DNA of 64,000 nucleotides from Pelodictyon luteolum DSM 273. Its GTDB lineage: Bacteria > Bacteroidota > Chlorobiia > Chlorobiales > Chlorobiaceae. The DNA lies in the NCBI RefSeq assembly GCF_000012485.1, contig NC_007512.1, forward strand, positions 1,697,501 to 1,761,500. Direction: 5' to 3'. A model generated the notes under the pieces. The model was not told the DNA's origin. It did no database searches and saw nothing but the letters and a program-made list of their open reading frames with translations. This document shows, piece by piece, positions 2,537 through 57,234 of the stretch (its first letter is position 1; each line of letters starts with the position of its first letter). The translations under genes and the position numbers were made by a program.

Positions 2537-2566
2537 AAAAAAAGCGGCCATTCGGCCGCTTTTTTT
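2537..2566. terminator. Bidirectional intrinsic terminator after mdh
   Basis: A GCGGCC/GGCCGC stem with loop ATTC is flanked by seven A on one side and seven T on the other. Variants of the same hairpin recur at 2762-2793 and 2988-3019 inside the tandem repeat. Confidence 0.9.
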
Positions 2567-2620
2567 ATGAACAGGTGTCCCCCATTACACCTGTTCCACC
2601 TCACGGGCGTGAGGAGTTTC

Positions 2621-2740
2621 ATGATTATACTTGCAATTGCCGTGCCAACGCCAGAAAATCCCCATTTTCCCATACAGAACCGTCCCTCATCGTACACTGC
2701 CGGATCCATTGTGAGACGATCCTGTTCCATACCCGAATGA
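2621..2740 (+). other. 39-codon mini-ORF in repeat unit 1 (copied at 2847-2966)
   Basis: ATG at 2621 follows a Shine-Dalgarno-like GAGGAG at about 5 nt spacing. It opens 39 codons beginning MIILAIAVPTPENPHF and ending SIPE. The identical frame exists in unit 2 (2847-2966). In the truncated unit 3 the same ribosome site and ATG read into unrelated sequence for about 63 codons. No homologue is recognised, so it could equally be chance within a non-coding repeat. Confidence 0.25.
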
Positions 2741-2761
2741 AAGCAGGCACTTCAGGGGGAT

Positions 2762-2793
2762 AAAAAAAAAGCGGCCTTTCAGCCGCTTTTTTT
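2762..2793 (+). terminator. Terminator at the end of repeat unit 1
   Basis: GCGGC/GCCGC stem with loop CTTTCA, preceded by nine A and followed by seven T. An identical copy lies at 2988-3019 at the end of unit 2. Confidence 0.85.
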
Positions 2794-2987
2794 CGAACAG
2801 GTGTCCCCCATTACACCTGCTCCACCCCACGGGCGTGAGGAGTTTCATGATTATACTTGCAATTGCCGTGCCAACGCCAGAAAATCCCCATTTTCCCATA
2901 CAGAACCGTCCCTCATCGTACACTGCCGGATCCATTGTGAGACGATCCTGTTCCATACCCGAATGAAAGCAGGCACTTCAGGGGGAT

Positions 2988-3019
2988 AAAAAAAAAGCGG
3001 CCTTTCAGCCGCTTTTTTT
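2988..3019 (+). terminator. Terminator at the end of repeat unit 2
   Basis: Same sequence as the hairpin at 2762-2793: GCGGC/GCCGC stem with an A-tract before and T-tract after. Confidence 0.85.
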
Positions 3020-3311
3020 CGAACAGGTGTCCCCCATTACACCTGCTCCACCCCACGGGCGTGAGGAGTTTCATGATTATAGATGCAAGTGCCGTGCCAA
3101 AGATCGTGATACATAAAAAAAATAGCACCAAAAGCCAGCAACACGCTGTATGCAGGGAGTTGCTGGCCACAAAAAGATGCGTATTGATGGAAATCAGGGG
3201 CATAGCTGCCCTCAGGCAGGTCGGTCAAAACAGTACATCACGTCCTGTTTTGACACAGCTGTAGCAGAAAGATGAAGGAAATGAGAGCTTGATAACTTTC
3301 CGCCGGGAATA

Positions 3312-39882: not shown

Positions 39883-39896
39883 TTAACAATTGTTAA
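39883..39896. promoter_or_regulatory. Palindromic operator TTAACAATTGTTAA (site 1)
   Basis: Perfect 14-bp palindrome 30 bp before the DUF4395 ATG and about 117 bp before the MOSC gene start on the other strand. Related sites occur at 42336, 42459 and 55968, each next to sulfur-metabolism genes. Confidence 0.6.
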
Positions 39897-40871: not shown

Positions 40872-42023
40872 TCATCCCCGTGAATGAGGTGTTAAAGCCA
40901 GAGCGAGATCGCAAATAAGGTCGTCGGGATCCTCGATTCCCACCGAAAGCCTGATTACGCCGTCGGTGATACCAACCTCAGCGCGGTGTTCGGCACCCAT
41001 CGATGCATGGCTCATGGTAGCGGGATGCTCGATCAGCGACTCGACTCCGCCGAGGCTTTCAGCAAGGGCGAACAGCTTCGTTCCCTTCAGGACTCGGTTC
41101 ACCTCCCCGATGCCTCCGTCGAGCTCGAAGGAGACCATGCCACCGAACCCGCGCTGCTGCTTTTTGGCAAGTTCATGCTGAGGATGGGTCTCAAGGCCCG
41201 GATAGAAAACGCGGGCGACCTTCGGGTGGCTGTCGAGGAATCGGGCGACAGCCATTGCGTTGCGCTCATGCTCCTTCATGCGTGGAACCAGCGTCTTGAT
41301 GCCGCGAAGCACCAGCCAGCAATCGAAAGGCTGGGCACAGGTTCCGAGGGTGTTGACCAGATATTTCAGCTTTTCATCGATCTGCGAACTGTTGGACAGG
41401 ACCGCACCACCGACAACATCGGAATGGCCGTTCAGGTACTTGGTGGTCGAATGGACCACTATGTCGGCACCGAGCCTGAAGGGTTGCTGGTTGTAGGGAG
41501 ACAGGAAGGTGTTGTCCACGATCGAGAGCAACCCGTGCTTCCTCGACAACGTCGTTACCGCCTCAATGTCGACAAGGTTCAGTAGCGGGTTCGACGGAGT
41601 CTCGATCCAGATTGCCCGGGTCTTTTCATTGATGTATGCCTCGATGCCAGCTGAATCCCTGAGGCTGATGAAATGAACCCGGATCTCGAAATGCTCCTGG
41701 ATGGTCTTCATCAGCCTGGCCGTGCCGCCGTAGCAGTCGTTTGTGCAGATGATCTCGTCTCCGGCATTGAAAAGGTGCATCACGGTAGCGATGGCCGCCA
41801 TGCCGGTGGTGACGGCCACAGCGCATGAGCACCCTTCAAGCGCGGCGATGCTGTCTTCAAGGGCTTTCCTGGTCGGGTTGCCGCTCCTGGTGTAATCGAA
41901 TCCCTTGTGCTTGCCGATATCCTCGAACACGAAGGTCGAGCTCTGGTAGATCGGCGTCATGATGGCACCATAGGCCTTGTCCGGGGCAACGCCGGCATGG
42001 ATTGTATCGGTCTGGAAACTCAT
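40872..42023 (-). CDS. Cystathionine gamma-synthase/gamma-lyase family PLP enzyme
   Basis: 383 residues of the Cys/Met metabolism PLP-dependent family. Markers are YGAIMTPIYQSSTF, the YTRSGNPTR substrate segment, and the lysine site VHSTTKYLNGHSD. It could synthesise cystathionine from an activated homoserine or cleave cystathionine; the sequence alone does not decide. The ATG at 42023 follows GGAGG. Its transcript carries a structured leader with an attenuator (42079-42188), and two TTAACAATTGTTAA-type sites lie in the divergent region shared with metY. Confidence 0.9.
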   Translation of the reverse strand: MSFQTDTIHAGVAPDKAYGAIMTPIYQSSTFVFEDIGKHKGFDYTRSGNPTRKALEDSIAALEGCSCAVAVTTGMAAIATVMHLFNAGDEIICTNDCYGGTARLMKTIQEHFEIRVHFISLRDSAGIEAYINEKTRAIWIETPSNPLLNLVDIEAVTTLSRKHGLLSIVDNTFLSPYNQQPFRLGADIVVHSTTKYLNGHSDVVGGAVLSNSSQIDEKLKYLVNTLGTCAQPFDCWLVLRGIKTLVPRMKEHERNAMAVARFLDSHPKVARVFYPGLETHPQHELAKKQQRGFGGMVSFELDGGIGEVNRVLKGTKLFALAESLGGVESLIEHPATMSHASMGAEHRAEVGITDGVIRLSVGIEDPDDLICDLALALTPHSRG

Positions 42024-42078
42024 GGCAATTCCTCCGTTCATTATTGTTGAAATATCGGGCGCAAACGGAAAAGGAAAT

Positions 42079-42112
42079 AAAAAAACCCCTTCCCTGATGA
42101 GTGAGGAAGAGG
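42079..42112 (-). terminator. Attenuator terminator in the leader of the metB-like gene
   Basis: On the minus strand CCTCTTCC pairs with GGGAAGGGG (8 bp with one G-U), loop TCACTCATCA, followed by seven T. It lies 56 nt before the start codon and its loop contains the 3' strand of the leader's closing helix. Confidence 0.8.
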
Positions 42113-42188
42113 TATTTGGAACTTATGCCTGGAGCCGCCCCTTGAGAGGGCCATTTCCCGGCGATAGTCAGACTCTATATCACTCATC
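42096..42188 (-). ncRNA. Structured leader RNA, candidate riboswitch
   Basis: A 93-nt segment is closed by a perfect 9-bp helix (GATGAGTGA with TCACTCATC). Inside, on the minus strand, are an ATAG/CTAT hairpin, a GCCG/CGGC helix enclosing CCCT/AGGG, and a possible GGAA/TTCC pseudoknot. The 3' strand of the closing helix sits in the loop of the terminator at 42079-42112, so the two folds are mutually exclusive. It does not match the SAM-I core (no GGCAACC element). The ligand is unknown; a sulfur amino acid or SAM/SAH is the obvious guess. Confidence 0.6.
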
Positions 42189-42335
42189 TTTCCTCGTCTC
42201 GGCAACAAATCGATCATGAATACGTGGCCGGAGGTAGAATGCGGCACCGTGTCCCTTGCGGGATCGGTTGTCAAGGCATCATCGGGTCTATTCCCTCAGC
42301 CTTTCTTGATGACTGTCAATGCAGACAAAGAACAG

Positions 42336-42349
42336 TTAACAATTGTTAA
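42336..42349. promoter_or_regulatory. Palindromic operator TTAACAATTGTTAA (site 2)
   Basis: Perfect 14-bp palindrome, identical to site 1, in the divergent region between the metB-like gene and metY. On the minus strand it lies just upstream of a TTGACA (42314-42319). Confidence 0.65.
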
Positions 42350-42458
42350 TGTACACGGAAAAAGCATACGAGTCAAGACGGAAACACACATTTTTTGCAT
42401 ATAAGTGGATGTCCCCTCCGAAAAAAGAGTTTTGAAATCCCGGAAAAAATAACATTTT

Positions 42459-42472
42459 TTAACAATCGTTAA
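42459..42472. promoter_or_regulatory. Palindromic operator TTAACAATCGTTAA (site 3)
   Basis: One-base variant of the palindrome, 123 bp from site 2, on the metY side of the divergent region. Confidence 0.55.
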
Positions 42473-42491
42473 CAATGCGCACGAAAAAAGG

Positions 42492-42555
42492 ATGGGCATC
42501 TCAAACAGCATCACAATGACTGGAAACCACCGGTGCTGCATCTGTTTGCGCCCAT
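42492..42555 (+). ncRNA. Long imperfect hairpin in the metY leader
   Basis: Nested complementary arms ATGGGC/GCCCAT, AAACAG/CTGTTT and GCATCAC/GTGCTGC form a 64-nt hairpin with an apical region containing CTGGAAACCACCGG. It precedes a terminator at 42604 in the same leader and could be part of an attenuation device. Confidence 0.45.
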
Positions 42556-42759: not shown

Positions 42760-44049
42760 ATGAGCAAGAAACCCTACCAGTTCGAGACGCTGGCGCTCCA
42801 TGCCGGCCAGGCGGTCGACGCTACCCAGTCGCGCGGCGTGCCGGTCTACCGCACCAGCTCGTATCTCTTCAAGAACACCGAGCATGCGGCCAACCTCTTC
42901 GCCCTCAAGGAATTAGGCAACATCTACACCCGACTGATGAACCCGACCACCGACGTGCTCGAGCAGCGCGTCACGCAGCTTGAGGGCGGCGCCGCTTCGG
43001 TCGCTCTGGCCTCCGGCACCTCGGCCATCTTCTACACCGTCATCACGCTTGCCGAGGCCGGCGACAACATCGTTTCGGCCAACAACCTCTACGGCGGCAC
43101 CTACACCCAGTTCGATGCCATCCTGCCGAAGCTCGGCATCGATGTGACCTTCGTCGATCCGAAGGACCCCGCCAACTTCGAGAAGGCCATCAATGAGAAG
43201 ACCCGGGCGCTCTACATCGAGACCATCGGCAACCCCGTGCTCGATTATACGGACGTGAAGGCGATTGCCGAAGTTGCGCACCGCAACTGCCTGCCGCTCA
43301 TTGTCGACGCCACCTTCACCACCCCATACCTGCTCAAGACCATAGAACTTGGCGCCGACATCGTCATCAACTCGCTGACCAAGTGGCTCGGCGGCCACGG
43401 GGCCGGAATCGGCGGCATCATCACCGATGCCGGGCGCTTCGACTGGAAAGCCGGGCGCCATCCGCTCTTCACCCAGCCTGACGCCAACTACCACGGACTC
43501 TGCTGGGGCATTGACCTGCCGGAGCCGCTCGCCCCGATCGCCTTTGCGCTCCGAGTCCGCACCGTACCGCTCAGGAACCTTGGTGCCTGCATCTCTCCCG
43601 ACAACTCCTGGCTCTTCATCCAGGGTATCGAGACCCTGCCGGTCCGCATGGCGCGCCACTCCGAGAACGCGCTGAAGGTAGCCGAACACCTGAAGGCCCA
43701 CCCGAAGGTCGCCTGGGTGCGCTACCCCGGCCTGAAGGACGATCCGTCTTATCCGATCGCATCACGGGACCTGAAGCACGGATTCGGCGGCATGGTAGTC
43801 TTCGGTGTGAAGGGCGGATACGATGCAGCGGTGAAGATCATCGACACGATCGACCTGTTCTCCCACCTGGCCAACGTCGGGGATGCCAAGAGCCTGATTC
43901 TGCATCCTGCCAGCACCTCGCACAGTCAGATGACAAAGGAGCAACAGGCCCAAAGCGGGCTCACTTCCGACCTCATCCGCCTCTCGGTAGGCATGGAACA
44001 TCCGGACGACCTCATCACCGCACTCGACGAGGTGCTGGCGAAGGTTTGA
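42760..44049 (+). CDS. metY: O-acetylhomoserine aminocarboxypropyltransferase (sulfhydrylase)
   Basis: 429 residues, the length of MetY and longer than the cystathionine enzymes. It starts with YQFETLALHAGQAVDATQSRGVPVYRTSSYLF and has the PLP-lysine segment INSLTKWLGGHGAGIGG. It makes homocysteine directly from O-acetylhomoserine and sulfide. This fits a sulfide-using phototroph. Very C/G-ending codons in this gene suggest high expression. A 26-bp gap leads to the regulator gene. Confidence 0.93.
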   Translation: MSKKPYQFETLALHAGQAVDATQSRGVPVYRTSSYLFKNTEHAANLFALKELGNIYTRLMNPTTDVLEQRVTQLEGGAASVALASGTSAIFYTVITLAEAGDNIVSANNLYGGTYTQFDAILPKLGIDVTFVDPKDPANFEKAINEKTRALYIETIGNPVLDYTDVKAIAEVAHRNCLPLIVDATFTTPYLLKTIELGADIVINSLTKWLGGHGAGIGGIITDAGRFDWKAGRHPLFTQPDANYHGLCWGIDLPEPLAPIAFALRVRTVPLRNLGACISPDNSWLFIQGIETLPVRMARHSENALKVAEHLKAHPKVAWVRYPGLKDDPSYPIASRDLKHGFGGMVVFGVKGGYDAAVKIIDTIDLFSHLANVGDAKSLILHPASTSHSQMTKEQQAQSGLTSDLIRLSVGMEHPDDLITALDEVLAKV

Positions 44050-44859: not shown

Positions 44860-45813
44860 ATGGCACGCATTGCAAAAAAACTCACCGACCTGATCGGCAA
44901 CACCCCGCTCCTCGAGCTCGGCAACTTCGGGCTGGACCAGCAGGCGCTCGGCACCATCATCGCCAAGCTCGAATACTTCAACCCCGGCGGCAGCGTCAAG
45001 GACCGTATCGGTTTCTCGATGATCGAGGCTGCCGAGAAGGACGGTCTGCTAACCAGAGAGAGCGTCATCGTCGAGCCGACCAGCGGCAACACCGGAATCG
45101 CCCTGGCCTTCATAGCTGCCGCCAAGGGATACCGGCTCATCCTGACCATGCCAGAGACAATGAGCATCGAACGCCGCAACCTCCTCAAGGCCCTCGGCGC
45201 CGAGCTGGTGCTCACCCCAGGACAGGAAGGCATGGGCGGCGCCATACGCAAGGCCGAGGAGCTTAACGAGAGCCTGCCGAACGCATTCCTGCCACAGCAG
45301 TTCAAGAACCCCGCCAACCCCGACATCCACCGCAGGACTACGGCAGAGGAGATCTGGAACGACATGGACGGCAAGATCGACATCTTCGTCTCCGGCATCG
45401 GCACCGGCGGCACCATCACCGGCGTCGGCGAGGTACTCAAACAGCGAAACCCGAACGTAAGGATCGTGGCCGTCGAGCCGACCGAATCCCCGGTGATCTC
45501 GGGCGGAAAACCCGGCTCCCACAAAATCCAGGGCATAGGTGCAGGCTTCATTCCCGATATCCTCAACCAAGGGGTAATCGACGAGATCATCACGGTCAGC
45601 AACGAAAACTCCTTCCGCACTGGTCAGGATCTGGCCCGCACCGAGGGGCTGATCGTCGGTATCTCCTCAGGCGCGGCCGTCTGGGCAGCACTCCAGCTGG
45701 CCAAGCGCCCGGAAAACAGCGGCAAGCGCATCATCGTCATCCTGCCCGATACCGGCGAACGCTACCTCTCCACCCTCCTCTACCAGTTTGAGAATGAAGC
45801 GACAGCAATTTGA
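44860..45813 (+). CDS. cysK: Cysteine synthase A
   Basis: 317 residues. The PLP lysine lies in [11 protein letters not shown], the substrate loop is [12 protein letters not shown], and the phosphate loop [13 protein letters not shown]. It joins O-acetylserine and sulfide to cysteine. The C-terminal end ([14 protein letters not shown]) is the family form able to bind serine acetyltransferase tails, though it ends differently (EATAI). It sits upstream of the sulfate transporter genes. Confidence 0.95.
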
Positions 45814-56091: not shown

Positions 56092-57234
56092 ATGGAGTTT
56101 GAAACCCTTGCCATCCACGACGGACAGGCTCCCGATCCAGTGACTGGTTCGGTTACCGTACCTATCTACCAGACCTCTACCTTTGAACGGGAAGGAATGG
56201 AATTCAATGGAGGATTCGTCTATTCACGGATCGGGAATCCTACCCGCAAAGCACTTGAATCCACGCTAGCCCTGCTTGAGAACGGCCGTCACGGCCTTGC
56301 GTTCGCATCGGGGGTAGCGGCAGCAATGGCCGCGCTGCAGGTACTCAGGCCGGGAGACCATATCGTTTCAAGCATGGATATCTACGGAGGAAGTTATCGG
56401 ATCTTCAAAGAGGTGATGCAGCCATGGGGGGTTGAAACAACCTATGCGTCCGGCAAAACCACCGCCAGCTACGAGAGCTGCATACGCCCTGAAACGCGGA
56501 TGATCTGGGTCGAAAGCCCCAGCAATCCGCTGATGCGCATTGCCGACCTGAGGGCGCTCGCTGCAATCTGCGGAGAACGGGGGATTCTCCTCGCCGTCGA
56601 CAACACCTTCGCCAGCCCCTACTTCCAGCGCCCCCTCGACCTCGGAGCCGACATCGTGGTCCATAGCACCACCAAATACCTCGGCGGCCACAGCGATGTC
56701 ATGGGCGGAGCCATCATTACCAACGACGGAAAGCTGCACACCGCCATCAGGAACTACCAGGCCACAGCCGGAGCCATTCCCGCACCATGGGAGTGCTGGC
56801 TTATCATGCGCGGTCTGAAAACCCTAAAAATCAGGATGAAGGAACACGAAGCCAACGCCCTCCACCTCGCACGGTTCCTCGAACAGCAACCTGCCGTCAG
56901 CCGGGTACTCTACCCCGGCCTCCCCTCACACCCGCAGCATGAGCTTGCCGCCAGCCAGATGGAGGGATTTGGAGGCATGATCACCATCGAACTGAAAGGA
57001 GGCATGCATGCCGTGGAGAAACTAATCAAAGGGTTGAAGCTGTTCATACTTGCAGACAGTCTCGGAGGGGTGGAATCCCTGATTGCCTCACCTTCCCGGA
57101 TGACCCTCTGGGCCCTTTCCCCGGAAGAAAAAGCAGCCCGGGAATGCACTGAAGGGCTCGTCAGGCTCTCAATCGGCCTGGAAAACGCCCGAGACCTCGA
57201 AGATGACCTCAGTTCTGCTCTCGAAGGCTGCTAG
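56092..57234 (+). CDS. Second cystathionine gamma-synthase/lyase family PLP enzyme
   Basis: 380 residues with VPIYQTSTFEREG, YSRIGNPTRKALE and the PLP-lysine segment VVHSTTKYLGGHSDVMGG. It is a paralogue of the gene at 40872-42023 rather than of metY. Having both suggests that one acts as synthase and the other as lyase, giving cysteine-homocysteine exchange in both directions; which is which cannot be read from the sequence. It is followed 56 bp later by the thi genes. Confidence 0.9.
   Translation: MEFETLAIHDGQAPDPVTGSVTVPIYQTSTFEREGMEFNGGFVYSRIGNPTRKALESTLALLENGRHGLAFASGVAAAMAALQVLRPGDHIVSSMDIYGGSYRIFKEVMQPWGVETTYASGKTTASYESCIRPETRMIWVESPSNPLMRIADLRALAAICGERGILLAVDNTFASPYFQRPLDLGADIVVHSTTKYLGGHSDVMGGAIITNDGKLHTAIRNYQATAGAIPAPWECWLIMRGLKTLKIRMKEHEANALHLARFLEQQPAVSRVLYPGLPSHPQHELAASQMEGFGGMITIELKGGMHAVEKLIKGLKLFILADSLGGVESLIASPSRMTLWALSPEEKAARECTEGLVRLSIGLENARDLEDDLSSALEGC

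Follow-up and report, generated by a model that had tools for sequence, protein, structure and literature searches.

A SAM-I riboswitch with a predicted transcription-attenuating platform upstream of a metB-like gene in Pelodictyon luteolum and related Chlorobiaceae

In our estimation (probability about 0.94), the element ahead of a cystathionine gamma-synthase/lyase-like gene in Pelodictyon luteolum DSM 273 is a SAM-I (S-box) riboswitch that switches transcription of that gene OFF. The interval 42079-42188 of the window (the whole stretch analysed, 64,000 nt of NC_007512.1; all coordinates are those of the window unless noted) is the expression platform of this known class, and the aptamer lies immediately 5' of it. 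Computation gave the aptamer homology, two mutually exclusive sets of pairings, the conservation of both, and near-equal predicted energies for the two states. The first-pass annotation of the interval had proposed a SAM-linked, riboswitch-controlled transcription attenuator ahead of the metB-like gene, and the adjacent RF00162 aptamer bears this out. A literature search, with supplementary regulon tables outside its reach, found no paper describing this leader; the survey of SAM and SAM-Chlorobi RNAs by Sun et al. (PMC3766115) includes the Chlorobiales.

The locus and its SAM-I aptamer

The metB-like gene starts with an ATG at 42023 on the minus strand, and the N-terminus of its product (MSFQTDTIHA) is identical in orthologs. 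The protein scores highly against the NCBIfam models for cystathionine gamma-synthase (CGS) and cystathionine gamma-lyase (CGL), but under the curated cut-offs of both kinds, so that it may serve in either forward or reverse transsulfuration. The divergent gene next to it, at 42760, clears the OAH/OAS sulfhydrylase subfamily model (the window's own metY) and the gene at 44860 is cysK; the surroundings of the locus are thus sulfur amino-acid genes. The promoter-pattern search returned 3 sites against 1.1 expected. The gene and its nearby signals are:

40872..42023, minus strand: regulated gene, a cystathionine gamma-synthase/gamma-lyase family PLP enzyme (ATG start kept in orthologs)
42031..42035, minus strand: Shine-Dalgarno GGAGG, read from the sequence
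42348..42376, minus strand: candidate promoter TTGACT-17-TACATT (9 of 12 matches, weak alone)

A paralog of the enzyme (48% identical; cystathionine gamma-synthase group, below cut-offs) is encoded at 56092-57225 on the plus strand and is retained in genomes without the riboswitch-controlled copy. Elsewhere in the window, three tandem Chlorobi-1 RNAs (RF01696) lie at 2554-3072 on the minus strand with a spacing of ~226 nt.

The Rfam scan placed a full-model SAM-I match at 42315-42181, overlapping the 5' end of the 42079-42188 interval on the same strand and scoring above the gathering score of 44.4 bits. SAM-I was the only family to reach threshold at the locus, SAH included among those that did not, and SAM-Chlorobi (RF01724) gave no match in 41800-42500 up to an E-value of 10. 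The covariance check proposed with the first-pass annotation, which had named all three families, therefore came out for SAM-I (60.5 bits) and for neither of the others. Its remark that the SAM-I core is absent is right for the quoted interval and wrong for the locus, where the core sits just outside 42079-42188. The parts of the aptamer are:

42181..42315, minus strand: SAM-I (S-box) riboswitch aptamer (RF00162, 60.5 bits, E 1.6e-11, model 1-108)
42308..42315, minus strand: P1 5' strand CAGTCATC, paired to the 3' strand at 7 positions, with one G.G mismatch (Rfam alignment)
42287..42290, minus strand: P2 loop UAGA, 5' strand of the SAM-I pseudoknot, pairing with UCUA at 42238-42235
42266..42272, minus strand: P3 core GACAACC (A replaces G43 of the usual GGCAACC), invariant in the family
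42243..42248, minus strand: P3 3' strand GGTGCC, invariant in the family
42235..42238, minus strand: J3/4 UCUA, 3' strand of the pseudoknot (aligned aptamers)
42181..42188, minus strand: P1 3' strand GATGAGTG, the switching strand common to P1 and the antiterminator (Rfam alignment, pairing tests)

The 4-bp pseudoknot between the P2 loop and J3/4 (UAGA/UCUA) is present in all 28 aligned aptamers. We take the SAM contacts to be U7, G11, C44, A45, A46, U57, G58 and U88, in the numbering of the T. tengcongensis structure; the corresponding nucleotides (J1/2 AAGA, C44/A45/A46 of P3 with U57/G58, and the A-U pairs of P1) are invariant or nearly so across 28-35 sequences. The P3 G43-C59 pair, which is usual and not strictly defining for the class, is replaced by A.C in 28/28. 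The metB-leader aptamer scores well under the metY-type copies of the same family (80-98 bits); one of these, at 80.1 bits, is a second S-box in the P. luteolum genome, upstream of a metY-like gene (O-acetylhomoserine sulfhydrylase, by reading of the translation beside that of the window's own metY). The genome also carries a SAM-Chlorobi RNA (RF01724; C1:776786-776880, 83.9 bits), and thus two SAM-related RNA classes.

The antiterminator, the terminator and the proposed switch

The platform comprises two overlapping structures:

42096..42188, minus strand: 93-nt domain, the antiterminator (9 bp between 42188-42180 and 42104-42096, plus an AGAG/CUCU helix)
42079..42112, minus strand: intrinsic terminator CCTCTTCC-loop-GGGAAGGGG-T7 (predicted hairpin of -12.0 kcal/mol)

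On the minus strand, GATGAGTGA (42188-42180) pairs with TCACTCATC (42104-42096) in a perfect 9-bp helix enclosing exactly 93 nt, and the TCACTCATC strand sits in the terminator loop. The domain, the helix, the position of its 3' strand and the run of seven T had all been described in the first pass, correctly and in the right place. The minimum free energy structure of the platform includes this helix, and adds an inner one between AGAG (42176-42173) and CUCU (42111-42108) of the terminator 5' arm. When the 16-nt 5' strand was shuffled, the duplex energy was equalled or bettered in 3 of 2000 trials. The antiterminator 5' strand and the P1 3' strand are the identical nucleotides. When each state in turn was imposed on the full leader, the predicted energies were -74.8 kcal/mol (P1 plus terminator) and -75.4 kcal/mol (antiterminator), a near balance, so that the energy of ligand binding could tip the outcome. 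Among six relatives, the balance ran from 2.8 kcal/mol toward the antiterminator (G148) to 7.6 toward the terminator (G032).

In the mechanism we propose, at low SAM GAUGAGUGA would quit P1 in favour of UCACUCAUC in the terminator loop, and the AGAG just after it would pair with CUCU in the 5' arm; the terminator would thereby be blocked and RNA polymerase would read through. With SAM bound, P1 would retain the switching strand and the CCUCUUCC/GGGAAGGGG-U7 terminator would form, giving a SAM-dependent stop ~56 nt ahead of the start codon. In the SAM-I class SAM stabilises P1, and since P1 and the antiterminator are competitors, SAM binding should set the terminator free (OFF). SAM binding, actual termination, and the sign and size of the regulation are what we infer here. 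The earlier claim that the closed domain prevents termination therefore survives, as an antiterminator that excludes the terminator. The ON switch induced by excess ligand that was derived from it has the sign reversed, having assumed that the closed domain is the ligand-bound state.

Conservation across Chlorobiaceae leaders

Orthologs were collected by protein search within the family (46 genomes, this one included; 77-95% identity), and the aptamer, antiterminator strand and terminator are present in 35 orthologous leaders. In these 35, 90.4% of the antiterminator cells are paired, versus 33.7-52.1% in slid controls (3' partners displaced by 1-3 columns); the corresponding figures for P1 plus terminator are 96.7% and 45.3-64.6%, and 97.5% of the cells of the terminator alone are paired. 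The homologous leaders to which the first pass had looked for corroboration thus keep the arrangement, but yield no two-sided compensatory change in the antiterminator; changes there are one-sided, mostly to G.U. The case for the antiterminator accordingly stands on conservation, position and the slid controls; a shuffle control of its columns was non-discriminating because the columns hardly vary.

A motif scan of the species-genome collection returned 47 stretches, all titled Chlorobium, Chlorobiaceae, Chlorobiales, Chlorobi or Chlorobiota. A pattern search located a metB-like start downstream in 44 of these, and reading the sequence added one more (L105); the remaining two end too early to show it. 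In L105, which comes from a more diverged member of the Chlorobiales, the P1 strand, AAGAG and an AACUCAUC terminator loop are all retained.

Some leaders depart from the common form. In three genomes (G173, G161 and G168; leaders L084, L086 and L093) the platform is ~60 nt longer and P1 carries GATGCGTG; the terminator loop is shortened (ATCATC) in two of these leaders, and one has TGCTTATC. With GATGCGTG or the shortened loop, the antiterminator helix of these genomes is predicted to be weaker (-5.7 to -8.6 kcal/mol). The metagenome-assembled genome W9_Combined_metabat2_148 has a metB-type S-box leader on two contigs (L123 and L140), each followed by a metB-like start, reflecting either a duplication or two mixed strains. 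The P. luteolum genome itself is filed in genus g1, whose orthologs are at most 81% identical to its metB-like protein, while the nearest matches of both that protein (95% identical to G148) and the leader are in genus g2; this discrepancy over 40872-42330 (minus strand) may stem from horizontal transfer between genera or from the genus labels.

A putative operator, alternative readings and significance

A palindrome is found further upstream, overlapping the candidate -10:

42336..42349, minus strand: palindrome TTAACAATTGTTAA, putative transcription-factor operator

The string TTAACRATYGTTAA has seven exact copies in the genome, compared with none for the reversed control. Three lie in the window (42336-42349, 42459-42472 and 39883-39896), two of them within the metB/metY intergenic region, and other copies have as neighbours, by reading, a FadL-like porin, a transporter, and cytochrome c-like and molybdenum-related genes. 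The palindrome resembles an operator, perhaps that of a Crp/Fnr-like regulator. Relatives have a similar palindrome ahead of the gene, also where the riboswitch is lacking: ten ortholog leaders, nine in g2 (L060-L068) and one in g1 (G167, L088), lack the aptamer before the gene and retain the palindrome as TTAACAATCGTTAA, or as TTCACAATTGTGAA in G167. The operator has thus outlasted the riboswitch in these leaders.

The first-pass annotation had suggested a ligand-binding fold inside the 93-nt domain, and a new RNA there, preventing termination on ligand binding as an ON switch, would agree with the way the closed domain rules out the terminator. It would also agree with the strong conservation, across most leaders of the larger sequence group, of an internal hairpin and the string CUCUUUUCAAAACAGG. 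Yet CUCUUUUCAAAACAGG is missing from the window's own leader, and the interior varies in sequence and length, with no core that aligns across all 35 leaders; the interior is therefore unlikely to bind a ligand, and we discarded a stand-alone aptamer within it on this ground. The known SAM-I aptamer, the only Rfam family at threshold here, adjoins the domain on its 5' side and uses the same switching strand, so it is this aptamer that supplies the ligand fold, and a new ligand-binding class is extremely improbable. Most leaders of the larger group also keep an AAAAGAG/CUCUUUU hairpin directly after P1, absent from the window's leader, which could keep the AGAG strand off the terminator in the OFF state. 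That the S-box has decayed, no longer senses SAM and has left a constitutive attenuator controlled by a transcription factor, we find barely credible: the lower Rfam score and the ten leaders that lost the riboswitch entirely while keeping the palindromic operator would accord with it, but in 35 genomes the aptamer core, the pseudoknot and the platform rank with the best-conserved parts of the leader. A functional and ordinary SAM-I riboswitch is very likely.

The ligand itself deserves comment. The change from GGCAACC to GACAACC, together with J3/4, first suggested an altered specificity; the A at position 43 is invariant in Chlorobiaceae metB leaders and, like J3/4, differs from the metY-type S-box of the same genomes, and SAM-I variants with a changed ligand are already known. 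Both features, however, recur in Bacteroidota S-boxes ahead of methionine-pathway genes, which weakens the suggestion. A43.C59 was found in 3 of ~75 other Bacteroidota RF00162 members sampled, the three preceding a CGS-like gene, metY with metX, and an apparent homoserine dehydrogenase (translations read), and J3/4 ACAU/GCAU followed by UCUA is frequent in other Bacteroidota S-boxes. The presumed SAM contacts are kept, and the downstream gene belongs to sulfur amino-acid metabolism. An altered ligand preference of the metB-leader aptamer is hence possible and not favoured, and a SAM-I-derived variant with a changed ligand, of the kind described for spermidine (PMC10853860), is very unlikely. 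We regard as unlikely, too, that the metB-leader aptamers form a distinct SAM-I branch in which A43.C59 makes ligand affinity or preference differ from that of the metY-type S-box in the same cell; if true, the metB-like and metY genes would have different set points or ligands.

The leader shares with RF00162 the P1-P4 four-way junction, the P2 loop/J3-4 pseudoknot, the core strands, a P1 3' strand that switches, a terminator/antiterminator platform and a methionine/cysteine gene downstream; it differs in having A.C rather than G-C beside the P3 core, and a long-range antiterminator that pairs mainly with the terminator loop. SAM-Chlorobi (RF01724) likewise belongs to the Chlorobi and the methionine cycle, but is a different RNA, found elsewhere in the same genome and unmatched at this locus. 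The spermidine riboswitch has the SAM-I architecture and is an OFF switch with a terminator (PMC10853860); its variants alter the SAM-contacting J1/2 and P3 internal loop, whereas the metB leader keeps those positions and does not precede a polyamine gene.

A riboswitch specialist would find nothing surprising here. The analysis strikes off one candidate new riboswitch class and corrects the expected sign of regulation. Barrick and Breaker (PMC2258182) report that transcription attenuation is dominant in Firmicutes and translation attenuation the commonest elsewhere; the metB leader, whose expression platform recurs among relatives, would be a further transcription-attenuating S-box from beyond the Firmicutes. 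The relatives that lack the S-box and keep the promoter operator are useful for studying the loss of riboswitch control.
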